Assembly (NCBI GenBank): GCA_964036195.1
Contig: OZ038450.1
Coordinates: 10,542,701 to 10,606,700, forward strand
Length of the DNA: 64,000 bases
Source of the DNA: Sphaerolaimus hirsutus
Taxonomy: Eukaryota; Nematoda; Chromadorea; Monhysterida; Sphaerolaimidae
Direction: 5' to 3'
Shown: positions 3,001-59,200 of the stretch, in pieces
Position numbering within the stretch: the first letter of the stretch is position 1
Layout of the letters: each line of letters begins with the position of its first letter
Notes under the pieces: model-generated
What the model saw: the letters and a program-made list of their open reading frames with translations, nothing else
The model's database searches: none
What the model was told of the DNA's origin: nothing
Program-made: the position numbers and the translations under genes

Positions 3001-3406
3001 CAAAAGCTACAGGGTACACTGCCATTGGAGCCCTGTACGTTTTAAGAGACAACTACTGCCCACATAGAATGAGCAAACAAATTTATTCATTTGTGACCCG
3101 ACGTTGCAGGCGTCGGACACGCTGTCACACGTATGCACTGTAAAAATGATGCCATTTTCACTGGGGGCCATAAAAACATAAATAGGTAGTGCAAAAACGT
3201 GGCCCAAAACTTGCCATTTGTCGCGCATGGGACTGAGGAAGGCAATTCTGGCAACCATGTGCTGCATGAAGGTCCTGGGACAATGGATGAAACAGTTTTT
3301 CCAACCTACATTTTGATCAAAATTTTTTTTGAGTCTGATCAACAATGCCATCATTGTGTGGGACTTCTGGGGGGGGCTGAGGGGGTAGGAAAGTTGCACA
3401 TACAAT
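1..3406. other. gene-free AT-rich stretch
   Basis: No reading frame here resembles a known protein and none has exon-like composition. The region contains degenerate repeat material rich in 'gttgac' and 'tgtcaa'. Around 900-985 it includes a remnant whose end (a variant of CAACTAGCGTGTG) matches the inverted-repeat MITE family seen at 25461-25618. Around 1060-1165 is a fragment with 'ggggttatt...attcgaggata', resembling repeats near 54740 and 60545-60965. Nothing else was supported. Confidence 0.6.
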
Positions 3407-4047
3407 TAGGGTGTCAAAAAAATTTTTTTACGGAAAACGGAAACGGAAACGGAAAAAATTTTTCAGTGGCCGGAAAACGGAACGGAAAACGGAAAAAAAT
3501 TTGCACTTGGCGGAAAACGGAAACGGAAATGGAAAAAAAATTTCAGCGGCCGGAAAACGGAAAAAGAGGCCGGAAAAACGGAAACGGAAAAATCAAATTT
3601 GCACGGAATTGGGAAAAACTTGCTGGAATTTTGCTGGAAATCGCAAAAATTTGCTGAATTTTTGCTGGAAGTGGAAAAAATTTGCAGTAATTTTGCTGGA
3701 AACAGAAATTTTTTTACATCATTGACAATCTGCATGAATTTTTGCCAGTTTGGCTGATCAGAAGACCGAAAGTTGAGCCAGAAAAAAGTAAAATGAGGTG
3801 GAAAAATGGAAAAAAGGCAGAAGAACTGGAAATTGAGGCGGAAAACGGAAAAAAGGCGGAAAAACTGAAAATTTAGCCGGAAAACGGAAAATGAGCCGGA
3901 AAAACGGAAACAGAAAAAAATGTTGCCGGAAAACGGAACGGAAAACGGAAAAAAAATTTCAGCAGCCGGAAAACGGAACGGAAAACGGAAAAAATTTGCC
4001 TGCGGAAAACGGAAACGGAAAACGGAAAACGGAAATTTGACACCCTA
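3407..4047. mobile_element. hAT-like MITE filled with CGGAAAAC arrays
   Basis: The ends are TAGGGTGTC and GACACCCTA. The element is flanked by an exact 8-bp target-site duplication, catacaat (3399-3406 and 4048-4055). The interior is almost entirely variants of 'ggaaaacggaaacgg', some separated by 'tttcagc' or 'tttgc'. A second full copy lies at 28930-29581 and a degenerate one near 49750-50066. TIR plus 8-bp duplication is typical of the hAT superfamily; no transposase is present. Lysine-rich open frames here are products of the repeat, not genes. Confidence 0.9.
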
Positions 4048-14421: not shown

Positions 14422-17400
14422 TCAAATGACGCTGGCCTGAAGTTTGGACGAGCGCAAAGCCACGTCGAAGCCGTTGGGCGCCGATTGTCTGTGCGCCGAG
14501 AAGTTGCCGGGCGCCTGCGGCCGCGGCGACGGCATGCCGAAATCGGCGGACAGACCGGCGGCCACGAGCATGTCGGCGCAGGCGCTGCTGCCGCCCTGGC
14601 GCGCGTACCACAGCGCCGACTGCCCGTCCTGGTCGACGGCGCGGATGTCCGCGTTCGCCTGAGAATGGGATGCATGCATGTGAACACCTGACCATATTTA
14701 GTTGTTAACGTATTTACGTCCACTGGAGTACGTATACGTTTCCTGTGGGTGAGTCAACAAGAAATACTTACAATTTATGTATAGTTTGAAAAACATTTGG
14801 TACTTTTAACAACTCTGCACGTGACTCGACACGGGGAACGAAATGACGCACGAACACCAAATAAAGCATAAGTCACCAACCCATAACAAGAGCTGGGCGC
14901 AGGCGGGGCTGTCGCTCGAACAGGCGAGGTGCAGCGGGGTGCGGTGGTCGCGCGACGACAACTGGCAGTTGACGTCGTCGGGCGACGCGTGGGCGAGCGC
15001 GTGCGCCAACAGCCGCGCGTCGTCCTTCAGCAGAGCGGCCACGAGCAGTTGCCGCACGCCGGCCGACGGGTTCGCTGCCGGCGAAGGCGACATGGGGCAC
15101 GGAGACGCCACGGGCAACGGGGCGATGTACGCGCGTCGTTCGTACTTGGCTCGGATCCAAGCCTCCTTCACGTCTCTGCAAGATGGTCCAACTTATAAAC
15201 GAAAATATTTATGTCAACTTCGCAGTGAATGGATAAAAAATGAAATTTTTATAAACAAAACCGGTACTAGGCTGACAAACCTGGAAGAGTCAGCGTTGGG
15301 TCTGAGGCGCTGATCGTCGACGGTCAGCCTGGCCTCGTATATTCTATTCATGTGTGCATTGCCGCCGAGCGCGTGCAGCACGGCCACGTACTCGGCGGGC
15401 CAGTCGTCGAGGGTGAGCGACCGAATGCGGCTGACGTGCGAGCCGAGCTGCCGGTGCACGCCGGAGCAGTCGATGCAGATGAGCACGCCCAAGTTGAGCG
15501 AGACCCAGTCGGGCTCGGGCCGGCCGCAGTCGGCGCACCCGGCGTTGCCGTGCATGGCGCGGATGGCGTCGCAGCGGCGGCGGGCGTCCGCGCTGACTGA
15601 CTTGCAGCCGTGCGACGACTGCGCCTCGATGCACCTGCCGATGGCCGCCTGGATGACGGACATCCACTCGTTGCGCTCGTCTGCGCAGCCCGCCTCCATG
15701 TGCCACTGGCGCGTGTCGGCCGTGATGATGACGAACTCGCAGTCGCCCTCGTCGTCCGCGTCGCACTTTGCCGCCGAGCTGCCCGTGCGCTTGTGCGCAG
15801 CGCGCTTCTTCTTGCTCGCCTGCGCAGCCGCGTCGCTCGCCTTGCACGCCTCCTCTGCGATCGAGGAAAATGGTGTGAATGTTTGAGTATTAAAGACCTG
15901 GGTGCAGTCCAGACCCTGTAAAAAAATGTCAATGTGAATCAATCCAAAAAATATTTTATTACTGCGCATGACAATTGACAGTGTACTTTACACTTTACAG
16001 CGTCTGGGATTGGCAACTAGAATTTTTCAATGGACAACCGGTAAAAGAAACCAATTGTCAGTGATCCATCAATCTCACTCCCCTATCCAATACCCCCACC
16101 ACTCACCGGAACTACTCTGCACCTCGCCAGGCTTCCCACCCTCCTGTATAAACTCGTAGGCGGTCAAAAGTGGATCCCCATTGGCCGGCTGCGGCCCATC
16201 CCCACCGGCACCGGAGACTGCGATAACGGTGGCCGGCGCGACGCCGGTGGGCGGCACGGTGATCGGCTGCGTGCTGAGACGGGCGGCGCGCGTGCGTCTG
16301 TGCGGTCCGGTGACCGCTTTGACGGTGGCCAGGCCCAGGAAGATCTCCTTGCCGCCGACATCGTCCATGTAGTCCTGGGTGGAGGAGTTGAATGAGTATG
16401 TGGTGGGCAGAAACGCCTCGATCGTACAGAGCTGGTTAGATCCGTTCTGATGTTTAAGTGACAGATTTCAGTCCTTTTCTCAGATTTTTCAATTTCAAAA
16501 ACCCTTTTAAATCAAATCTGAAATTTTATTATTAAATTTTATTGAAATTTGGAATTTTAAGATATCTGATATCGACATAAAAATATCGAAAAACAACGAA
16601 TATTGGCATCGAAAAATACCATCGTCGCACTCGCAACCCTACCTGACATGGTATAGCATTAGTATTTACCAAACGGCTAACAAAAACACACCTTGAGATT
16701 AGCATGATAGACGAGTCGGCCATCGTCGTAAAGGCACACATATTTCTTCTTCCACTCCTTGTTCAACGCCTTGCTGCTGCGCTTGTAGAGGTGGCCCTGC
16801 TTGAGCGGGATGGCGCGGCCGGAGCCGAACTCCTGCTTCAGCAGCTCTTGTCGGTCGTCCTTGTCGCGATTGCTGCCGCGCTGCGAGTGAGAATAAGTTT
16901 TTGTGTACATAAATAAGGCGAAGCTTGAGGCGAAGCTATAAATTCTTTTCAATGCCCCGTTGTTTTCAAAATAATTTTGCAACATGAACATTCTGGTATA
17001 ACGAAAAAGGTTACATTCAAATAAGCAATTTTGAATGTCGTATCGACTGCCATAACTATTCTGGCCCCCGCGTCTGTTTGAAAGAAGTTATTTTCATAAC
17101 AACAAAACTAAAAACGCCAATTGAGCCGAAAAAACTTTCAAAACTCACAAAAATATTCGATATGCGCCGGTTTTTCCTCTGCGCCGTGGGCGTAATGGAC
17201 GGAGTCACATTATTGTTGTTGTTATTGCTAGTCTGCGCAGTGGCGCCGGTGCCGTTCGCGCTGGCCGTCTGCTTAATCTCAGATCTGTCGTTGGGGAGTC
17301 TTTGAGGCGGCGTCTGCCCATCCGTGTAAGATTCTGGCCGCGGGACTTGCTGAAATGGGGGAAAAATTAGTGAGTGAAGAGTTATTGAGAAATATAAGGG

Positions 17401-20400
17401 GGGGATCCCAGACCCTGTAAAGTGTCAAGTGTCAAATGCCATGTAAAATGTCAATCAAAACAAAAAAATAAAAGATTTTATATCTGAACTTTACATAATT
17501 GATACTTCGCATGAGATTTGACCAAAATATTCGACACTTACAGGGTCTGGAATTGGAATCAGATAGATGATAATAAGCATCAGGATACAACTCACCGATC
17601 TGCAATTGGTCGCGTTGTGGTGCTCGGTGGGCGCGAGCTGGTGGCTGGAGGCGGGCATGGAGCCGGCTCCGCTCACGAACGAGTAGGACCGGCCGTGCTG
17701 CGCGGGCAGCTGCCCCATGGCGGCGTGCTGCGACTGCGACGGCGACACGCGGCTCTGATAGAAGCCCAGCGGGTAGTGGCCGGGCGAACGGGCGGGCGCC
17801 GCCGAGCCGGGTTGTCTGTCGCCCGCCGGCGTGCAATAGCCGTCGGACGGCATCGGCGCCGACAACATGCTGCGGCCGGGGTGCGCCAGCGCTCGCTGAG
17901 CCAGGATCTTGTGGCATGCTGCGAGAGGACACAATCGTTGTTGAAAAGGGTAAAACAATGTTAATCATTTGACGGGGACGATAAAGATTTCGAAAGTGTT
18001 CTGAAAGTTTTCCAAATTTTTTCCCACCATTATTGGAACGCAGATATGTATTCGCTATTTATAATCAATCATTGACACGCAAAACTCGGGAGATCAAAAT
18101 AAAATTTCCAATTTTTCAAGTACAACCAAACGGGAAACCAAACAAAAAAATCCCCAAACATACCTTCTCTAAAAACCCTCTCCACATTGAGCCCATAGGT
18201 CGCACAGGTCTCATAATAAGCGCACCGCTTCAAATCATGACCCAACTTCCTAACACGGGCCTCATCACACACTCTAGGTCGTCCATCCCCAATAGAGTCC
18301 TGGGTACCCACCAATATAACGGGCAGGTCGGCCGTGCCGGCGGCGCCCCTGTAGTGCGCCATCCTGTTGTAGTAGTTGCACGCGGTCGACAGCGACTGTT
18401 CGTTGTCCAGCGAGAAGACCACGATCACGGCGTCGACCCAGTGCGAGAACTAGAGTGGTGTAAGAGAGGTGAACGTGGTGGTTAGAGTGGTGTAATAGGA
18501 GTTTGGATGAGTTATGAATGGAGATTTACCGGTGAACAAACATACGAAATAGATCAATACAGAGGCCAATTCGATGCGGCACTAAATATGTCAAGTGGCC
18601 TGTCACGCAACAAATTTGTGAAGTTACAGAGGACAAATATTTTTAATATTTACAATGGCGCTGCGCACACTACTAGTACACCACCGCGATTTGGGAAACT
18701 CATCGAAATTTTTTTGAACAGTTGACCAGAATGAGAGTATTTAAATTGCCGTCGACATCGATCAAAAAAAATTCATTCTCGTAAACTCAAATGTGTTCAA
18801 AACTATGTTTCAAATGCCCTGTGAAAAGATGCGTAAAGGTCCAAATTTCTGGGTAACTTTACTTCTAACTTCACGGGGATCCAAAATTTGTCAGAAAAAC
18901 TGTCACTTGACATCATTTGGGATTGATTCTCGGGCAGGCGAACTAAATTACGTAATAAAAGTGATTGACGCGCGGCATCTGAATAAATAGGATGAAGTGC
19001 CATCATCGCAAAGCTGCGATCATCAAAGGGCGCGCCGCCCGACAATCGCCGCCAACTGTCAAAAGGCAAAACAGTGGCGAAAAAAACAACAAGTCAATTA
19101 GACGGCATCGACGGTTCAAACAATAAATCGGCATTAACAAGCTCCCTTCCCACGACGCTGTATATTCAAGTGACCGAGGTAAGGTCACAAAAAATGACTC
19201 AAAGAGTGACCGCCAGTTCACACGCTATCATAAACAGTCGCAAACAAACAATCGAAAGTGGTGCTTGACTGCGGGCCGAATGAATGTAGACACCAATTTG
19301 GGCGATCGGTTAGTCACTTTGCTGTTCCAAAGTCAAGGGGCGACCTTGGGGGCCGATTAAAAAAGAAATTATCGGAAATTTCTTTCGAAATTACTCGAGC
19401 ATAAATTTTTTGCTCGATACAACACTGGGTCAGTGTTGAATTTCAAAAGAAAGCCCGAATTTATTGAGTAAATGCATGATGGCAGTTTAGCGAATCACGT
19501 CGTTAAATACGGCACCGTCGAGCAACAGATGTCCATCGGAACCTGACATAACACTGGTGGTCGCCAATAAAAGCGACCGTATTTTGTCAGAGACTGCAAA
19601 AACGTCAATTGACTCGACTGCAAAATTTTACTGTCCCGCGATAAAACAATACGGGCACATGGGACGGGCAGCAGCAGGCGGCAGCTCGTAAAATCGGATG
19701 AGCCGCTCCGACGAACGATGGGAAACAAACAAAATTGAGGCCATAATTGGCACGCCCACCTGCAGTAGAGCGTCCGTTTACGACGGATGCACGTAAGCTG
19801 CAGCGACAACTGAAAGTGTGCGTAAACCTGTGGCTGGAACGGTTGTAATCCAATCGCCGTGGTAACGTGTGCAGCGCGGCGCAGCGGCGCGACGGCGCCA
19901 GGGCACTTAAACAACTCGGTGGGAGGGGACCTTCCCAAGCAATCAAACCGAGCTCACTCAAACCCATACTTTCCACCCTCCTATTGTTCTTTTGTTTGCA
20001 CTGAGTTACATCAATGTGCATACGTTCAGCCTAATTACGCCACGAAATGCAAATAATAGTGACAATGTTGAGCGCAGTGTGCAGTTTGGCTGACTCTCAT
20101 GGGAACGGAGGAATGCATGAGACAGATCGAGCGTAAACTAAATGGACGCTGGAAAATCGCTGCGGGCTGGCTGATCAGGGTGAAGTCTAATTCTCAGCGC
20201 ATATCGCTCAGCGCACATCAGTGAGTGAATGCATGATCAGTTCGGCAGATAAATAGTGTAATGACTAGTTGACATAGCTAGTAGACATTTGTGTCAACTC
20301 AATATCTACTAAATAACAAAAAAAAGAATTCTTAAAACAGTACACTTAACAGAATCGATTTAAAGTGGGTGTCGTTATGTCAAATTAACTATCATCTATC

Positions 20401-26400: not shown

Positions 26401-29400
26401 TAATAAATTTTTTTTCTAGGGAAAGGGACCGGGACTGGGGCGTCGGGACCGGGGCCGGGAAGTTGTGATCGGGACTGCGCCAAACCGGGGAATTTACCGG
26501 GACCGTGGTCCCGTTTGAACCCCAAATTGGGGAAATTTTGGAATCAGGATTGGAATGTACAAATTTTAAGATCGGGATCACGGCGTCAGGATCAGGATAT
26601 CTGAATCACAAAAATTATACGGATTCGGTATCAGGATCCCGTCTGAACCCTAGCGGTTCCTGGGATAGATAGATATAGGAGTAGGGTAGATTTTGACCCT
26701 CTGGGGGGTTGGATAGATAGATATAGGAGTAGGGCAGATTTTGACCCTCTGGGGGGTTGGATAGATAGCAAATCGCTCCTCCAAAAGGATAGATAGCTGA
26801 ACAAAATTTGGTGGAGGGGGGTCGGGGGGTGGTGGGTTCGCGGGGGTTCAATATATAGGCTTTTTCAAGGTGTATAAGGAAGAAAAATCGCAAAAGTATG
26901 TGGAAGCTAAAAATGGGTATATAAGCACATATAGTAAACACCTTCCCGATCAAGTCCGGCCCCCAATTTTTTATTTTACTTCTGCCGTCCTATCTACAGT
27001 TCTAGGATGCGCCAGAAGCTAAAACTTGGGGTAGATATTGGCGCAACCCCCCTCTACTTCGCATGAATTCAAGGGGTCGCGGCAACCCCCTACAGGGTGG
27101 GTCACCGAGTGCAAAAAAATTTTGCAGCTTTTTTAGTGTCCCACACAGGTCTGGCCCCCACTGATTTCTTTCACTGCGGGTGCCGTACCTCCACCTGTGG
27201 GAGGGGTATAAATCTACAATTTTGGGGATGTGTCGCCAACACCCCTCTCCTACTATACACTGGCCAGGCAGTCTTTAGCAACTCACCACAGTGTGGGGTG
27301 CAAAGTTTAAAATTTATTAAAATGTTACTGTCCAACACAAGTCCAGCATCCAATTGAATTTCAAAAAATGAACACTTTTGTGTTGTTTTAACACTAATGT
27401 GGTTGACAATGTGAAATAAGCATGAAATATCCTCTAAAAAATATCTTATCCGACCTAAAACTGCCCACCACACAAACCCCTCCCCCCAAGTGGGTGACAA
27501 AAAAATCACTTTTTACAACTTTTTCATTAGACACTTGAACTGCTGGTTTACAATGATTTATAGAGGAGGGTTAAAAGTATCAAATTGTGTAAAAAACCTT
27601 ACCTCAAAAATGCCTTCATAAGAAAATTTGCTGGGGGTAAATTTAAAATTGTAAATTTTGCCTATTTTTGTTCCTGCAATGATGTCATTTTTACAATTTG
27701 AAATTCACCCCCAGCAAATTTTCTTATGAAGGCATTTTTGAGGTAAGATTTTTTACACAACTTGAGACCTTTAACCCTCCCCTATAAATTATTGTAAACC
27801 AGCCATTCAAGTGTCTAATAAAAAAGTTGTAAAAAGTGATTTTTTGTCACCCACTTGGGAGAAGGGGTTCATGTGGTGGCCAGTTTAAGGTTGGATAAGA
27901 TATTTTTAGAGGATATTTCATGCTTATTTCACATTGTCAACCACATAAGTGTTAAAACAACACAAAAGTGTCCATTTTTTAAATTCAATTGGATGCTGGA
28001 CGTGTGGGGCAGTAACATTTTAATAAATTTTAAACTTTGCACCCCACATTGTGGTGAGTTGCCAAAAACCGCCTGGCCAGTGTATAGTAGGGGAGGGGTG
28101 TTGGCGACACAACCCAAAATTTTTTTAGATCTATACCCCTCCCACAGCTGGAGATACGGGACCTGCAGTGTAAGAAATCAACTGGGGGCCGGACCTGTGC
28201 GGGACAGTGAAAACGCTGCAAATTTTTTTCACGTATATGGAGACCCCCTCTATAGTGAGTCGCCGCTGCCCCATTTATTCATGAAGGGTAGTGGGGGGTT
28301 GCGCCTATATACCACCCAAGTTTTAGTTTTCCACCCCTCCCACAACTGGAGATATGGCCTGCGAAGTGAAAAAAAAATAGGCGGCCGGACTTGATCGGGA
28401 AGGTGTTTACTAAAAATAGCTGAAAATAGGTAGATGACACATGAACTAGGGATTTTGGAGTGAAAATCTTAAAAAGTTACAAAAAGTAGTGAATTTAGAC
28501 GAAAATTGGGGTATAGTTTCTCAAAAATCGCTCCAGATAGGTAGATAGCTGGCCGATTTGGGGAGGATAGAAGCCTTGGGCATTTGGGGGTTAGAGGATA
28601 GAAGCCCAAAATTTTGTCTCCGGGATAGATAGAAAGCAGAGTGGCCTCTGGAATAGATAGCTAGCTGGGCGGTTTGGGAGGCGGTAACCCCCCCCCCTTT
28701 CCTACCCCTGGTTAAGCACTACTCCATGTCTAACTTCACTTGAACTAACGAACATTTGATAAATGGCGATTTACATAACGAGTCTACATAAAAAGTGGAT
28801 TGTTTTGGCATAAATCAACACTTACAATGCTATCCCATTGCTCCACAACCATTCTAAGGCTATATATTTATATATATCATCACAGGTACTGCCACTTGAC
28901 ATATATACCTGTATTTATTTACTCAGAACTAGGGTATCAAAAATTTTTTTTTACGGAAAACGGAAACGGAAACGGAAAAAAATTTTCAGCGGCCGGAAAA
29001 CGGAACGGAAAACGGAAAAACATTTGCACTTGGCGGAAAACGGAAACGGAAACGGAAAAAAAATTTCAGCGGCTGGAAAACGGAAAAAGAGGCTGGAAAA
29101 ACGGAAATGGAAAAATCAAATTTGCACGGAAATGGGAAAACTTGCTGAAATTTTGCCAGAAAATGGATAAAATTTGCTGGAAGTGGAAAAAAATGTGCAG
29201 TAATTCTGCTGGAAACAGAAAAAAATTTTACATCATTGACAATCTGCATGAATTTTTACCAGTTTGGCTGATCAGAAAACAGAAAGTTGAGCCAGAAAAA
29301 AGTAAAATCAGGCGGAAAAATAGAAAATTGAGGCGGAAAATGGAAAAAAGGTGGAAAAACTGGAAATTGAGGCGGAAAATGGAAAAAAGGCGGAAAAACT

Positions 29401-44600: not shown

Positions 44601-47600
44601 TTATTTGTAATTAGATTTTCTAAAAAAGCACCCATTTTTGGAACGCTATGTGCATTAGGGTTGGGACGATATATCGTATCGAATATCGAATATCGGATAT
44701 CGACCATTTTTTCATATCGAATATCGAATATCGATATCGAAAATTTTGAAAAAATATCGAATATCGATATCGAATATCGACCATTTTTTCGATATTTTTC
44801 GATATTCTGGTATTCTTTTTGAGGTATTGGTGATCGCATAAAAAATGGCTGAAGCCAACAAAATGTGGATGCTGCAGCCAAACACGTATGCTTATGAATG
44901 CACAAAGTAATATATCATATATAAATGCCATGTTATTTTCACATTGAGCTATCAAAAGTAGGATATCACGGGTAATGTATACACATCCTTACAAAATATA
45001 TGATATTAGCAAACTGCATCACAAGCAAACCATTTCACCAAACCTTTGCATGGCAACATGGCTCAAAAGTTTGGCTGTTTATTTTAAAATACCAACCTTT
45101 TAAAAATGTTAAAAGCCAGCCACCCTTAGTCACAAGTATGACCTGAAGTGTTTAAAAAATTTTCACCTTGTATAATTTGATTCATCCTGTTTTTATTTCA
45201 TTACCTCATTTCAACTGTTGTGAACCTCATTTAAAAAGATTATCAACCATGTTTGTGTCCAAATGGAAATACAATATGCCCCGCTGTACTAAAATATCGA
45301 AATATCGAAAATATCGAAATATCGATATCGAATATCGAGCATATTTTCATATCGAATATCGATATCGAATATCGAGGGTCCATATCGTATCGATATCGAA
45401 TATCGACTTTCAGAAAAAAATATCGAATATCGATATCGAAAAGTCATATCGTCCCAACCCTAATGTGCATGGACCAAACGTCAGTCGTTCGTGTTGTTCC
45501 CCCTCTCCTACCGTCGTGGTCCCATTGCTCGAATCAATCGTGGCATCCATGTGCGGCGTGTGCACCGCCAGGAACTGGCCGCCGACGGAGCACTCCAAGC
45601 GCGAGTGTTTGGTGCGCACGCTCACCCTGCCCGTGCCCTGGTGCTGCGTGATCAGCGCGCCGCATATGCGCACGCATTGCCGCTTGCCCGCCTCGTTGCC
45701 GAACACGCGCGCTTGTGACACGGTCGCGATGCACCGGTCGCGCCGCACGCCCGCCCAGCGCCACGTCATAATCGACGGCTCGTGTAGCAGCACCTGCGTC
45801 GCCACGGAGAATATTTGCGTTGCACACGCTAGTTGACGACCGAAATTTCTAAAGCTGTTTCAAACACTTGAGTTTACCAGAATGAAGAGTCCGTGAACTG
45901 ATGTTCACGGAGATAACAAACGATTAGTTATGGTAAATTCAAAAAAATCCAATGCGGAAACTTCGGTTGTCAACACGTGGGCACGTGGGGTTGTGTACGT
46001 GGGCACATTGCAGTGCTCGGTACTCGGTATACATCAATTTGGCAGGTATCTGCTAACCGGCGTGGTGCAGTCGTTGTTGCGTTGTAGGCGCACGTGGTGC
46101 TCCGTGACCGCCTTCATCCACTCTACGCGCTCCCCGTTCGCCGGCAGCGTCCACATGTGGCCGGCGCACTCCACGTCGGGCAGGTGCGGCGCTATGCGCA
46201 GCGCGTGCGCGTCGACGCGGATGCGCGCCCCGCCGCACAGGTCGGCGAACAGGCGGTCGGCGTCGTACAGCAGCTCGACGCGGCGGTGGTGCACGGCCGC
46301 TAGTCGGCCGTCGAGCGACACGGCCGCCGACGCGTCGCCCAACGAGCACACGCGCACGCCGCCGCCCAGCGTCAGCTCCACCAGCATGTTGCGCTGCAGC
46401 AGCACGGCCACCGTGTCTGAAAACACATTGTGATTTGTGAGCTGCTCGTTTGCACAGCACATTGGGCCCACACACCTGGCGGCAGTCCCAAGCCCTGTGT
46501 AATGTAAAGTGTCAAATGTAAAGTCAAATGCAAAGTAAAAAAATCAATCGTCATGCAAAGTTCAGTAATAAAATCTTCTTTTTTGTGATAGACATTTACT
46601 TTTCAATTGACTTTACATTTGACACTTTATTTTGCACTTTACAGGGCTTGGGACTGCCCCCTGTTGACATTGCAAATTCATTTCAACAAAATAACGCCAG
46701 AATTTTTGTTTTAAAAATCGCACTTAACAGAAACAATGAGAATTAATTGTCATGATGTGGAAATAACTATGCTCTATCAGATAAGAAAGTTGAAATCCTA
46801 TAATTCACTAAAATTTTGTTGACTCCAATTCAGTTGACACCCAGCGTGTGTGGCGCCATTGGCGCTCCACACGGTGGTTGACGCTACTTTTTAGAAGTCG
46901 ATTGAGTCAACTCAGAGTCAACGGTTTTAAGTATAACTATTTTTAATTTTTTACCTGTGTTGATTAAGAAATATTGAGAAGTCGATTGATGTAGAATGAA
47001 AGAAGGGGATTTTTTGGATACATATTGTAAATGGCTCAGAGTCAATTGAATTTTTGACCAGTTGACTCTGAGTTGACGCTAATTTTGGCGTCAACTAGCG
47101 TGTGTGGGGCCATTGCTACACCATATCACTCACCCAGTCGGCTAATGTAAATGTTTGGATATGGCATTTTAGTCGGTTCGTGTACACTGGCGGGCGAGAG
47201 TGCGGCGCTGCCGGTTGACGTCGTGTTCACGGCTGCCGATGTGCCCGTCGCTTTGTCCCCGTGCTCCACCGACGTGCTTCTGTAGAGTTGTCATTTATGG
47301 CTTCTGTTATGGCCCCATATTTTATTTTGAAGGCAGGCGTGCCCGACACGCAAAGGAATGCCTGACAAATGCAAATTAATCTATTTTATGATCGAATACC
47401 ATGCAAATTGGATGAACTTGATCGATAAGTTGGGAAAACTATTCATGGCATTCGTTTGAGTTTGTCAGGCATGTCAGGCACGCATGCCTTCCTAATAAAA
47501 TCTGTGGCTGGTAATTATACGGCTGCCTTTCGACCTTACCTGGACACGCTCTCGTCATTGGTCTCGTTGCTGAAAGCGTTCTCGTGTTTTTCACTCGTTT

Positions 47601-51222: not shown

Positions 51223-53820
51223 ATGGCGGCGCCCAGCACCACCACCGCTACCGTACCGACCGCGACCGGTGCGGTGGCGCCTACATCCGGTGACAAGAGC
51301 TACGACAAGGACCAAGTGTGCCAGTGGGTGCTCGACTTGACCGAGCCCAGGAAGAGGGACACGGCCCTGTTGGAGCTGAGCAAGAAGAGAGAGAACGTGG
51401 AGGAGCTGCCCATTTACTTGTGGAACACGCACGGCGCCATCGCCGCCCTGCTGCAGGAGGTCCTGTCCGTGTACCCGGCAATTTTCCCGCCCACGCTGAC
51501 TGTGAGTGATGCATTTTGTCATTTGTCATTTTCAGAGTGGTCCTTTTCTCGCAAGTGGCTATACTCGGCGGACACCACACTCAGCATTGGAAAAATTCTG
51601 GGAGATTTATATTTAAAAAAATCTCAGAAAAGATAAGATTTTCTGAGATTTATATTTTCACGATTTTCTAGAGAGATTTAATTATATTTTCTTTTTGAGA
51701 GATTTTCTGAGATTTTTAAAAATATCAAATATTTATATTTTTTCCAGGTTTTTTTGAGAGATTTTATTATATTTTTTTCTTGAGAGATTTTTTGAGATTA
51801 TATTTAATTATATTTTTTTTAAATTGACGATTTTTTCAATGCTAATTCGCACTTATTATGGAAACCTACCATAACCCATCTGAAAAATTAGCCAAAAATT
51901 ATACTGTTTTTCATCATAATATGTTGTTTTTACTTAGGAATAATAAATTATGAAATTTTTCGAAAGATTTTATTCATTCAATTATGGAAGAATTCTGCAT
52001 ATACTTGCGGTCCGCCTTGTATATATTATACGTAAATTGTGAGTGGTAAGTAGGGTTCAAACGGGATTGACTTTTCGGGATCGGGATTGGTTTTTTGAGA
52101 TTTCGGGATCGGTATCGGGATTGGCCTTTCGGGATCGGGATCGGGATTGGCTTTTTGAGATTTCGGGATCGGGATTGGCGTTTTTTCGGCATCAGGATTT
52201 AGGCCTAAAAATTGGTTTTCAGGGTTTTTTTCCTGACATTTCACAAAATGACCCAAAACACCAAAAACAATGGATGTCAGAAACGTTGGATTAAATTGGC
52301 ATTCAAAACAATGCTATAAATTCATTTAGGCTCTGTGCAATGGGCTGCCTGGCATTGTCATTCACACCACTGTCTACCATCTATGCATGTGTATTAACCT
52401 TAAACTATGGTAATGGGCACTGTATCGAGTCCATTTGTAGTGGTGTCCATGCCCACGGAACATAGATATAGAAGGAGGTGGGGAAATGCGCGCTCGCGCG
52501 CAAAATTTTTTTGCAAACTGCATACAAAATGGTCCTTTAAAAGTGCCATTTCTGGCACCTTTTGTGTCTGTGAATTTTTCCGGGATCGGGATTGGGGCAT
52601 TTTTTCGAGATCGGGATTGGGATTTTCAAAATCTCGGGATTGGCTTTTTCAAATTTCGGGATTGGGATCGGGATTGAGGTTTCGGGATCGGGATCGAGGT
52701 TTCGGGATCGGGATCGAGGTTTCGGGATCGGGATCGGGACCACATATCCCGAAATTTCTCGGGATCGGGACCACAAAATCCCGAAATTTCTCGGGATTCG
52801 GGATCGGGATCCCGTTTGAACCCTAGTGGTAAGTAGCACATTTTCATTCTAATATTTATTTGTCGCTTACGTTTTGTTTCTGCTTGACTTATCACTTCAG
52901 ACATTTACTCACCACTTGCGGAATTGGCTCCCGGTTGCACATGCTCAACTGTAGACTTTTTTATGCATATCGCTTGTTAACCGCACAGGCGCAACAGTCC
53001 AACCGCGTGTGCAACGCGCTGGCGCTGATGCAATGCGTCGCGTCGCACAGAGAGACGCGCGGCCCCTTCCTCCAGGCGCACATCCCCCTGTTCCTGTACC
53101 CCTTCCTGCACACGACCAAGCCGTCGCGCCCTTTCGAGTACCTGCGGCTGACCAGTCTGGGCGTTATCGGCGCCCTGGTGCCAGTCCCAGACCCTGTAGA
53201 GTGCCCTGTAAAATGTCAAATGTCATCAAAGTGTCAAAAGTCATGTAAAATGCCCTGCAAAATGGCAACTCGGTTTTTTACACGACTTTTCACGCTTTGC
53301 ATTACATTTGACATTTTACAGGGCATTTTACAGGGTCTGGGACTGCCCCCTGGTGAAAACCGACGAGCAGGAAGTGATCCAGTTCCTGCTCAGCACCGAA
53401 ATCATCCCGCTGTGTCTGCGCATCATGGAGCAGGGCACTGAGCTGTCGCGCACCGTGGCCACGTTCATACTGCAGAAGATCCTGCTCGACGACCACGGCC
53501 TGTCCTACATCTGCCAGACCTACGAGCGGTTCTCGCACGTGGCCATGATCCTGGGCAAGATGGTCATCTCGCTGGCGCGCGAGCCGAGCGCCCGGCTGTT
53601 GAAGCACGTGGTCAGGTGCTACAGCCGCCTGTCCGACAACCCGCGAGCCAGGGAGGCGCTGCGGCAGTGTCTGCCCGACCAGCTCAAAGACGGCACGTTC
53701 TCGGCCGCCATCGAGGGCGACCGGTCCACGCAGCAGTGGCTGCGCACGCTCACTGCGAATATTGACGCGGCCGCGGCGCAGCAGCAACAGCAGCAGCCCG
53801 GGCAGCAGATGCCCGGTTAG
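51223..53820 (+). CDS. CNOT9: CCR4-NOT complex subunit 9 (CNOT9/RQCD1)
   Basis: Armadillo-repeat subunit of the CCR4-NOT deadenylase complex. Coding parts: 51223-51501, 52989-53177 (or to 53180) and 53353 (or 53356)-53820; 311 aa against about 299 in vertebrates. Seen: [113 protein letters not shown], near-identical to the family. The C-terminus adds a Gln-rich tail. Odd: the sequence between GAL and VKTDEQ is a 167-bp MITE plus a perfect 8-bp duplication. The 175-bp insertion would shift the frame, and no register of the duplication gives GT-AG ends. An AATAAA at 54066-54071 is the likely poly(A) signal. Confidence 0.95.
51590..51830. repeat. AGATTTTCTGAGATTTATATT repeat
   Basis: A run of 'gagagattttctgagatt' and 'ttatatttt' variants, related to 44410-44630. 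CNOT9 intron 1. Confidence 0.5.
52051..52825. mobile_element. MITE with GGGATCGGGATT arrays
   Basis: Ends TAGGGTTCAAACGGGAT and ATCCCGTTTGAACCCTA with an exact 8-bp duplication gtggtaag (52043-52050 and 52826-52833). The arrays reverse orientation toward the right end (gggatcggga, then tcccgaaattt). The centre includes 'gcgcgctcgcgcgcaaaatt', the shared core. CNOT9 intron 1. Confidence 0.95.
53181..53347. mobile_element. MITE family E splitting a CNOT9 coding exon
   Basis: Termini ccagtcccagaccctgta and tacagggtctgggactgcc, with second internal inverted pairs (gccctgtaaaatgtc and gacattttacagggc). It is flanked by a perfect 8-bp duplication ccctggtg (53173-53180 and 53348-53355) that lies inside conserved codons. 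The unmutated duplication and clean termini indicate a recent insertion. Confidence 0.93.
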
Positions 53821-56284: not shown

Positions 56285-59200
56285 ATGGCGGGTCGTTCGA
56301 CGCGGCTCACCAGCCCGCCGCTGTCGCCCATGAGCACCCGCAGCGGCCACGCCCTGTCCCTGTCGCCCAGATGTGCGTCTCTTATTTAGATGTCTAGCCG
56401 AGGGTGGCTCTATTGCATGCACGCATGTGCGTTGGCACGTGGGGCTTTTCACGTGCTGTGTGATGTGTATTGCTGTGCGGTGTCACGGTTTGAATCAGAA
56501 ATTGTAACTGAATCGACCACGAATTCTCCCTGGATGAAATCACGTCGCCAAGGTCCACATTCGCAGTCGTCAAAAGAGCATTGCTAAGTTTCACGGAGCC
56601 CGGCTGACAATGACATCGCTCTAACATCGCATGCAAGAATGCATCCATATGTCGAACAAAATTCCATGCCTTTTCGACACTGGCAATCGGTATCGCTCTG
56701 AAATGCACCATTAGGAAGTTACTTTGGAGAACTTTGAATTTTAAATCTTGTGATTTTGGGTTGTTTTCAAAATCTGACAATCAAACATCTATTTTATCTA
56801 TTCTATCTATTTTAGTACAAAAATCTATTTTATGGGCGAGTGAATTTGTAGTTACAAAAAATGTAGACAACTGTCGAGGATAACCGAAACGTAAGGGGCA
56901 GCTTTGTCACTAAAACATGACGGTGTCGGGCCAGCGCCACACTTTCAAATTCTGATTTTGACACATCTAAATTTGTGGACATGCACTTTCGAATTGAAAC
57001 TCGTCAAATATCATAGGTATGTGAAGCTAGCACGTGAAAAGTCACTTGTGCAAGCAGATTCGTGTATGTAATATACAGCGCGCTTGCTGTCGAATTGCGC
57101 TGCAGGTGCTACTCCCAGACACTGTAAAATGTAGATTGTGACGCAAAGCGTCAAAATTCATGTAAAATGGCAAACGAATTTTGTAGCTTTTGACACTTTG
57201 AATTTCATTTACATCTTACAAGGTCTCCGAGTGCATCTGCTCACGGCACTGTCCTCATGCAGCTGCCCGAAGCGACGAGGGTCGCCGCACGCCGATAGCA
57301 TCCGGCGGCCGGACTGCATCACGCGCCAGCGGCGCCCAGTCGCCCGGCGTGGCCAGCAGCCCCACCAGGTTCCAATCCCAGACCCTGTAAAGTGTCCTGT
57401 CAAATGTCATGCAAAGTGTCAATAGTCATGTAAAATGGCCGGTAAAATGGCAAACGTACGTTTGCCATTTTACCGGGCATTTGACATGACTTTTGACACT
57501 TTGCATGACATTTGACATTTTACAAGACATTTTACAGGGTCCGGGACTGCCCCCAGGGGCGGTCCGGCGGCGCAAAAGAAGCACGAGCAGCTAGTTGCCG
57601 AAGTGAAGCAGGCCTACTTGGTGGCCAAGGCCGACTACGATGCGCAGTGCTACCGATACGCGCCCGTGCGTTCTGGCGTTCGCATTCGTCTGGGGCTGGT
57701 CTTGAACACTGTGTATTTGCTGTTGTGGAAAATGGGGAATTGAAGAAATCACCTCATAACAAACATCAACAAAACAAATCAAAACAGAAGTGTTTATTGT
57801 TCATTTGACGCTTTTTTCGCCTGTCACACGACAACTTCCCTAATTGCGATGATTTTCCCCCTACTCGTTTGTTGAGCTGTCTGTATACTGACTCAATTCT
57901 CCCAGGGGATATTGTCTGCTGCGCTGAGCGATGGCGCTGCGGCAAATGTCAAAGTGTTGCAAGGCTTGGACGAGAAACGCTTTGCGCACCCGTGCCCACG
58001 CTTCGAGTCGGTCGGCAATCTGGGCGGGAAAAATCCGCGCACGGTTAGTGTTCAATTTGATTGCACACCGTGTTCGGTCCACTCCTGGTGCCAGTCCCAG
58101 ACTCTGTAAAATGTCATGTGTCATGTAAAAAACCCTGTAAAATGTCATGTGTCATGTAAAAGACCGTGTAGGTAAGGTGGCAAATGTGTAGAAGAACATG
58201 TATGGTGTCATGTGTATCCAAAAAGTGTAGTATCGTATCCAAATAATACATGAGACATGACATTTTACAGCGCCTATTACATGACAATTTACAGGGTCAG
58301 GGACTGGCCCCTAGTCGCATTCGCTCAATTGTATCATATTTCAGGTGGTCGTGCGGCCATTGCTGAAAACCAATGGACAGCCAATGGCCGGCGACCATAG
58401 CGGATTTTGGGGTTAGCATTTTGGGGGGGGGGGGTCAGCCGGTCAGCACGCGTTAATAACTCGGGAACCGCTTGGCGAAAAATGTTGAAATTTGGATATG
58501 TTATGGTTTCAGGTCGGGGCTAATATCAAGTCCGACGATTTTTTTCTACGACCCCCCAGACCGGAGATAGGGGGGGTCTATAAAAACACTGTAATTTGCG
58601 TTTTTTTGGGTGTCGCCAAGAACATGCAAACTTTGAACATCAATAGCTCGGTCATTTGTGAACCGATTTTCGTCATTAAAATGTTAAAATGATCACAAAT
58701 GTTCGGAGAGTTCATTTCTGAGGTCAAATCGGAGATACATGTTGGTTTTTATATCGATTTAGCTCGATTTCGAAATGCAAAATTTCCGCAAAAGTTTGTT
58801 TTTTGAACATACTATCCTATTCTCCTGATCGAGAGAAACCCAATGAAACAAAAATGAGATCGATATCTCTCTCCGATCAAAAGTTATAGCACTTCAAACT
58901 TTCGCGTCCCATCCATGTAAATAACCGCATGAAGGTCAATGCGTTCAAATTCAAAACTCCATATCTCGACCATTTCTCAGCCGATTTTTACCAATGAATA
59001 TTTAAAATGATCAGAATAACCTGAAAGTTCCATTTGTATGCTCAGCTTATCTGTATCCTAACTTAAATTTCCCACACAAGAAAATAATGCAAACTCTTGT
59101 ATGAAATTATCATTATGAAAAAGCATATTGACAATTTGAACATACAACTGGACTCTTTAGGTTTTTCTGATCATTTTAAGTGTTCATTGGTAAAAATCGG

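Follow-up and report, generated by a model that had tools for sequence, protein, structure and literature searches.

Structure of the CNOT9 locus

The window (the whole 64,000-nt stretch of DNA analyzed) contains the essential gene CNOT9 (Rcd1) on the forward strand. Exon 1 (51223–51501) was recognized by its ORF and a Pfam Rcd1 match, and is followed by an ordinary intron 1 (51502–52988, GTGAGT...CACAG), the removal of which joins PPTLT to AQQSNRVC, the same as in relatives. An array of cgggatcggg-type repeats occupies 52070–52830, within this intron. Exon 2 (52989–53177), with the 3′ end ...GCC CTG, and exon 3 (53353–53820), which includes the stop codon, were placed by protein alignment to human CNOT9 and by reading frame. 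The 175 nt between them (53178–53352, forward strand) correspond to a proposed GT...TG intron, as their exact removal rebuilds Rcd1 and their retention causes a frameshift. After this removal, the coding sequence comprises 311 codons without a stop and gives a single Pfam Rcd1 match, covering profile positions 1–260 of 260 (E = 7.5e-121).

An earlier note on this DNA had described a MITE that interrupts conserved CNOT9 codons, and comparison with other species agrees with this. The alignment to human CNOT9 runs continuously through GALV-KTDEQ, where K follows directly on GALV. The conserved segment at the insertion site is identical in 110 of the 120 relatives listed, and none of the 118 in which it is recognizable has an insertion between GALV and K. 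The best-matching relative is from the nematode Plectus sambesii (81% identity). The sequence CCCTGGTG is indeed present at both edges of the insertion (53173–53180 and 53348–53355), with 167 bp between the two copies, and the 175-bp insertion is not divisible by three. When the junction was slid through this repeat, the only exact junction starting with GT was GT...TG, and GT-AG was never obtained, again as the earlier note had stated. An intact second CNOT9 gene, which that note had named as one of the observations that would speak against its proposal, was not found by a protein search of the whole 348-Mb assembly; the search returned three matches, all of which are exons of the window locus. 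Because the assembly holds no second CNOT9, a working CNOT9 mRNA must lose the insert.

The MITE proper is a 172-bp NuwaI-like element (GTGCCAGTCCCAG...CTGGGACTGCCCC, 53178–53349, forward strand), delimited by genome-wide family matches and by the ends of sister copies. It has a left hairpin arm (53174–53226) and a right hairpin arm (53301–53353), identified by inverted-repeat comparison and RNA folding. The arms are 89% complementary, and nearly the whole 167-bp spacer forms one hairpin. The predicted RNA fold of 53173–53355 has an energy of −113.8 kcal/mol, compared to −45.2 kcal/mol (sd 3.9) for 200 shuffled sequences. The polypyrimidine tract at the right end of the element (GGGACTGCCCCCTG) is poor.

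The element family in the window and genome

A first-look genome search with the CNOT9 insert gave 2,581 candidates, 40 of which were scored and listed. The 25-base left-end pattern CCWGGTGCCARTCCCAGACCCTGTA had 1,031 exact matches in the genome (543 + 488), and its reversed control had none. Three samples of copies were taken for counting. Sample S1 consisted of the 40 scored places and the EZH-like copy of the window (41 in total, 37 usable), selected for their similarity to the CNOT9 insert and its flanks. Sample S2 took the first 30 matches to the left-end pattern on C1, with the right end found in 28, and sample S3 the next 20 matches along C1, minus the match of CNOT9 itself, which was already in S1. 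S2 and S3 demand CCWGGTG on the left, and all three samples consist of well-matching copies, so that older copies are under-represented. Dropped before the counts were L013 and L061 (duplicates), L037, L046, and L047 (bad ends), and L069 and L080 (no right end). The concordance count of W bases (n = 80) additionally omits L067, L068, L089, and L095. The pairs L060/L061 and L011/L013 have near-identical flanks ~0.2 Mb apart on C1 and are probably segmental duplications carrying the element.

Six sister copies were located in the window. One of them (57369–57556, forward strand) coincides exactly with the second intron of an EZH-like gene and forms a canonical GT...AG intron in phase. This gene has CXC and SET domains (Pfam) and is EZH in our reading of the sequence; no EZH relatives were found with its first 300 residues as query. 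Two further copies on the forward strand lie in the same gene: one (58091–58308) is nested in an ordinary intron (58044–58344, GTTAGT...TTTCAG), and an older-looking one (57109–57235) lies within intron 1 (56373–57262). The remaining three, read by eye, are also intronic. A forward-strand copy (46482–46658) lies in a minus-strand gene, and two older-looking minus-strand copies (17402–17556 and 15903–16013) share one ArfGAP-domain gene (Pfam ArfGap). We considered whether several window copies might be introns themselves, and this held for 57369–57556 only, as the other five lie inside larger ordinary introns (judged partly by eye). The window also contains dispersed repeats at 3190–3660 and 28780–29400, in both of which a frame reads a Gly-Asn-rich string.

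Element ends and target duplication

The left end of the element is nearly constant, with G in 36 and T in all of 37 copies. Read from outside, the right end is GGGGCAGTCCC, and the left end is GTGCCAGTCCC. The adjoining CWG motifs were compared in 80 usable copies. Their C and G are nearly invariant on both the left and the right, and are therefore uninformative about duplication. The W base was the same on both sides in 66 of the 80 copies, with 38 expected if the sides were independent. A Fisher value of 7e-5 from a separate count also concerns the concordance of the left and right W bases. For the three bases outward of CWG, left and right agreed in 60, 15, and 21 copies, compared to 60.5, 17.5, and 21.4 by chance. 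Because W is concordant and the outer bases agree only at chance level, the target duplication is best read as the 3-bp CWG and not a longer one, with the left GTG and the right CCCC belonging to the element itself. At CNOT9, its left copy would be the exonic CTG at 53175–53177, and its right copy the CTG at 53350–53352, which junction sliding and the W concordance point to as the proposed TG 3′ splice site.

This revises the 8-bp duplication of the earlier note, as the 8-bp match at CNOT9 is best read as a CTG duplication plus a coincidental likeness of the element ends (the outer CC and GTG) to the exon. A hAT-type MITE with an 8-bp duplication was also considered and set aside, since the right exon starts with GTG in only 11 of the 80 copies and no concordance extends beyond CWG. 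The recent insertion that had been judged from a clean 8-bp duplication thereby loses its support, because the clean 8 bp, better read as a 3-bp duplication, give no insertion date on their own.

The base before the final G at the 3′ end was T in 36 and A in 42 of the 80 sampled copies. The GT...TG reading noted earlier at CNOT9 is supported as the only exact junction starting with GT, but it is not a peculiar obstacle of this gene, since nearly half of the sampled family has T at this position. Among the discordant copies, nine had T on the left and A on the right, and two the reverse, which is suggestive of a maturation of TG ends to AG.

Coding phase and protein domains at the junctions

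Codon usage was scored independently for the two sides of the junction, in all three frames, after training on 939 codons of window exons, including CNOT9. In the sense of the element, 26 of 84 copies were coding-like on both sides, and 24 of these 26 were in phase at the exact junction (p = 5e-10 against 1/3; 23 of 25 without CNOT9). The two out-of-phase copies were L022 and L096. At three other cut-offs, the in-phase counts were 36/48, 27/34, and 19/20. The result was the same for both 3′ ends (12/13 in phase for CTG and 12/13 for CAG), and the coding-like share was 13/36 for CTG copies compared to 13/42 for CAG copies. In antisense, 21/35 (p = 0.001, above 1/3), 12/20, 7/11, and 3/6 copies were in phase, depending on the cut-off. 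At the chosen cut-off, 10 of the 11 candidates in antisense also scored in sense, and the excess was therefore read as shadows of sense genes; the sense frame of the remaining locus, L077, is open as well.

Retention of the element would break the frame at all 15 gene-anchored copies, through an in-frame stop in 13 of them and through lengths that are not multiples of three in CNOT9 and L071. The predicted hairpins are strong in all 15, with 76–90% of the bases paired. Of the 50 loci fetched for S2 and S3, 13 were coding-like and in phase, and 5 of these 13 end in TG. Extrapolated from one chromosome and the 1,031 matches of a strict pattern, this suggests ~270 exonic introns genome-wide, ~100 of them GT...TG. 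Two GT...AG sense copies (L075 and L076; C1:7358882 and C1:7360195) lie 1.3 kb apart next to coding sequence of the cadherin type, which resembles FAT4 in L076, and perhaps belong to one gene.

Thirty sense ORFs were searched with Pfam after exact removal of the element. In six of them, a domain above the cut-off spans the junction, and all six are GT...TG copies: KIF1B in L010 (3.6e-13), PhoLip_ATPase_C of a flippase in L025 (3e-12), Sugar_tr of a sugar transporter in L027 (2.4e-7), PAS in L035 (1e-7), Oscp1 in L059 (4.4e-17), and CHGN in L066 (1.2e-15). Together with CNOT9, this makes seven genes. PDB alignments cross the L025 and L035 junctions with no gap there, and no PDB matches were found for L027 and L010. 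In the other 24 ORFs, including every GT...AG copy sent, no domain above the cut-off crosses the junction. Below the Pfam cut-offs, and thus uncounted, were L022 (thyroglobulin, 0.0034), L011 (Kelch, 8e-4), L028 (Reeler, 0.001), and L071 (zf-C2H2_7, 0.0021), the domains of the last two crossing the junction. Also uncounted was the globin domain of L042, which does not lie across the junction; the domain of L076 stops one residue short of it. No Pfam domain crosses the junction in ten antisense ORFs. A Kazal domain starts 35 residues past the junction of the antisense copy L026, and this copy may lie close to an intron edge of the reverse direction.

Proposed origin of the intron

The CNOT9 insert probably belongs to a MITE family with the behavior of an introner, spliced at CWG/GTG...CWG/. 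As judged from sequence, the best reading is an introner family in a nematode, with TG ends about as frequent as AG ends. The family has similar copies at exact intron positions of different genes, with 24 of 26 in phase and domains rejoined, and it carries signs of transposition, namely the concordant W of CWG and the inverted repeats. We infer that the element is removed by RNA splicing, that this would be done by the spliceosome, and that TG may be the actual 3′ splice site; the GT...TG junction is inferred from phase and domains only.

The element would insert at CWG (often C-CWG-G) and duplicate three bases. In sense orientation, the GTG at its start would act as the 5′ splice site. The 3′ splice site would come from the CWG copy that follows the right end of the element, with a CAG target giving AG and a CTG target giving TG. 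As the target in CNOT9 is CTG, the intron would be GT...TG. A transcript cut at both CWG boundaries would regain the original codons, and pairing of the element halves would bring both splice sites side by side. Standing against this explanation are the lack of a good polypyrimidine tract at the right end and the 3′ dinucleotide itself, as TG acceptors are rare among known animals.

Alternative explanations

The most serious competitor, which we consider unlikely, is SOS splicing, in which inverted repeats fold and the element is removed by spliceosome-independent cutting and RTCB ligation, with any end dinucleotides. Transposon excision from animal mRNA with healing by RTCB has been described (PMC13247085). 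Judged by its CNOT9, the host is a nematode, the CNOT9 insert is predicted to fold end to end, and the 15 gene-anchored copies keep strong hairpins, so that the paired inverted repeats of an SOS substrate are present in the predicted folds. TG is also tolerated like AG, as would be expected if the 3′ dinucleotide were irrelevant to a hairpin-driven process. An SOS-type system should be indifferent to orientation and splice sites, and would need particular factors. Such independence was not observed here. The coding flanks fit the element sense, the antisense candidates are mostly sense loci too (10 of 11, with the open sense frame of L077), and no domain crosses the junction in the antisense ORFs. 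Moreover, the 5′ end of the element is almost always GT. The orientation and the near-constant GT thus favor splicing that follows the gene direction, as opposed to a system that depends on the hairpin only, such as SOS splicing, although the equal tolerance of TG and AG still speaks for the latter.

Splicing at cryptic GT-AG sites near the element, with few residues changed, has a very low probability in our view. Such pairs do exist at CNOT9 with the frame open: donor 53196 with acceptor 53370 would replace KTDEQ with PVPDP at the same length. The phase-compatible alternatives listed in the earlier note were incomplete, as, for example, donors 53231 and 53240 fit with acceptor 53333, and the exon acceptors 53367 and 53370 fit with donors 53178, 53184, 53196, and 53208. 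All of these further pairs would change conserved residues. The segment that cryptic splicing would alter is identical in nearly all listed relatives, and the exon acceptors have no pyrimidine tracts. Each gene would also need different sites, whereas exact removal suits all seven domain-proven genes. When the GT of the left end was paired with internal AG acceptors, the outcome was +1 modulo three for 36 of the 37 copies (L041 lacks an acceptor of this kind, and L026 also has one in-phase combination). When donors inside the element were allowed too, 33 copies were +1, and L023 and L026 held in-phase combinations. Since the internal GT and AG are one base out of phase in nearly all copies, the simplest canonical alternative is removed.

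About as improbable is a damaging insertion on one haplotype, with the insertion-free allele missing from the assembly. The U2AF1 matches on C14 and C720 are paired at equal identity, as alternative haplotypes would be, and the assembly may therefore be incomplete for other alleles. However, it contains no second CNOT9 match, and the same type of insertion recurs, in phase, in many conserved genes. The view of CNOT9 as an isolated broken gene is likewise weakened, since the family recurs and no other CNOT9 was found in the assembly. Somatic excision of the elements from DNA before transcription is barely conceivable, because, although transposase-type excision could restore the sequence exactly at a short duplication, orientation and GT should be irrelevant to it.

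Splicing factors and significance

The genome contains two U2AF1 genes, at C14:3032343–3038004 and, in divergent form, at C16:15183258–15191469 (loci L101, L103, L106, and L109). The two proteins, in parts put together, are 72% identical to each other. The divergent U2AF1 has both zinc fingers conserved and differs mostly in the middle domain, and no orthologue of it was seen, as identity did not exceed 67% among the best 120 of 2,125 relatives. U2AF2 has one clear locus. The U2AF1 matches on C720 pair with those on C14 at the same identities, and C720 may be an alternative haplotype contig.

We lean towards the view that an entire class of introns in this nematode derives from a transposon and ends in TG, which would arise because the transposon duplicates CWG. 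TG would then be as good as AG to the splicing machinery when the hairpin holds the ends together, and the divergent U2AF1 may be part of the adaptation to this. CTG and CAG insertions would be equally harmless, and the family could therefore have spread freely through coding exons. If true, the target choice of a transposon sets the 3′ splice dinucleotide, and CAG and CTG targets, with the same element and host, form a natural paired experiment on the need for AG at the 3′ splice site. The nematode would also join the few animal groups known for intron gain from transposons, and an annotation of this species restricted to GT-AG introns would disrupt CNOT9 and other conserved genes.

Comparison with known systems

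The orientation bias and the constant GT observed here are unexpected for SOS splicing. Both processes would remove transposons from animal mRNA, as described for SOS splicing in PMC13247085. In its target, the element resembles NuwaI of the PHIS superfamily, which is related to PIF/Harbinger, has animal hosts and a CWG duplication, and has TIRs usually starting with GGG (PMC4482050). The 5′-CWG-3′ target duplication and the animal host are shared with the family described here. Its two ends differ in this respect, as the right end has GGG (GGGGCAG), whereas the left end starts with GTG. The NuwaI account in PMC4482050, in the sections covering the family, does not include nematodes among the listed hosts and does not mention introns.

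Among the titles listed in the literature searched, which consisted mostly of papers outside subscription journals, none was on a nematode introner or GT-TG intron class, and the passages covered of a nematode-intron study (PMC9169325) report neither. A few single GT-TG introns are described in human genes (PMC4176328). Among animals, Fritillaria borealis has many introns without an AG end, mainly AG/AC and AG/AT, and has duplicated U2AF1 and U2AF2 (PMC13326754). The present case is similar in the many proposed non-AG introns and in the U2AF1 duplication, which may be a parallel, but differs in the GT/TG ends and in the one clear U2AF2 locus. In the dinoflagellate Amoebophrya, introners have inverted repeats, short direct repeats, and hairpins (PMC7789003). 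These features are shared with the family described here, and the termini in Amoebophrya are variable and non-GT-AG.

Introners in general are transposon-like, with TSD and/or TIR, and take one splice site from the element and the other from the TSD, leaving the mRNA length unchanged in most families (PMC9860276). That survey names only two animal groups with introners, and its main text does not mention nematodes. The creation of introns by transposon-like elements with such repeats would be the same here, with a nematode as host and TG at the end of nearly half of the sampled copies. The introner elements IE-B and IE-D of the green alga Micromonas have GT-TG splice sites and 25 and 6 members, respectively (PMC3879977). 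Both systems would thus be GT-TG introners, but the family proposed here is a MITE with a CWG duplication and 1,031 end matches, in which the target would set AG or TG.
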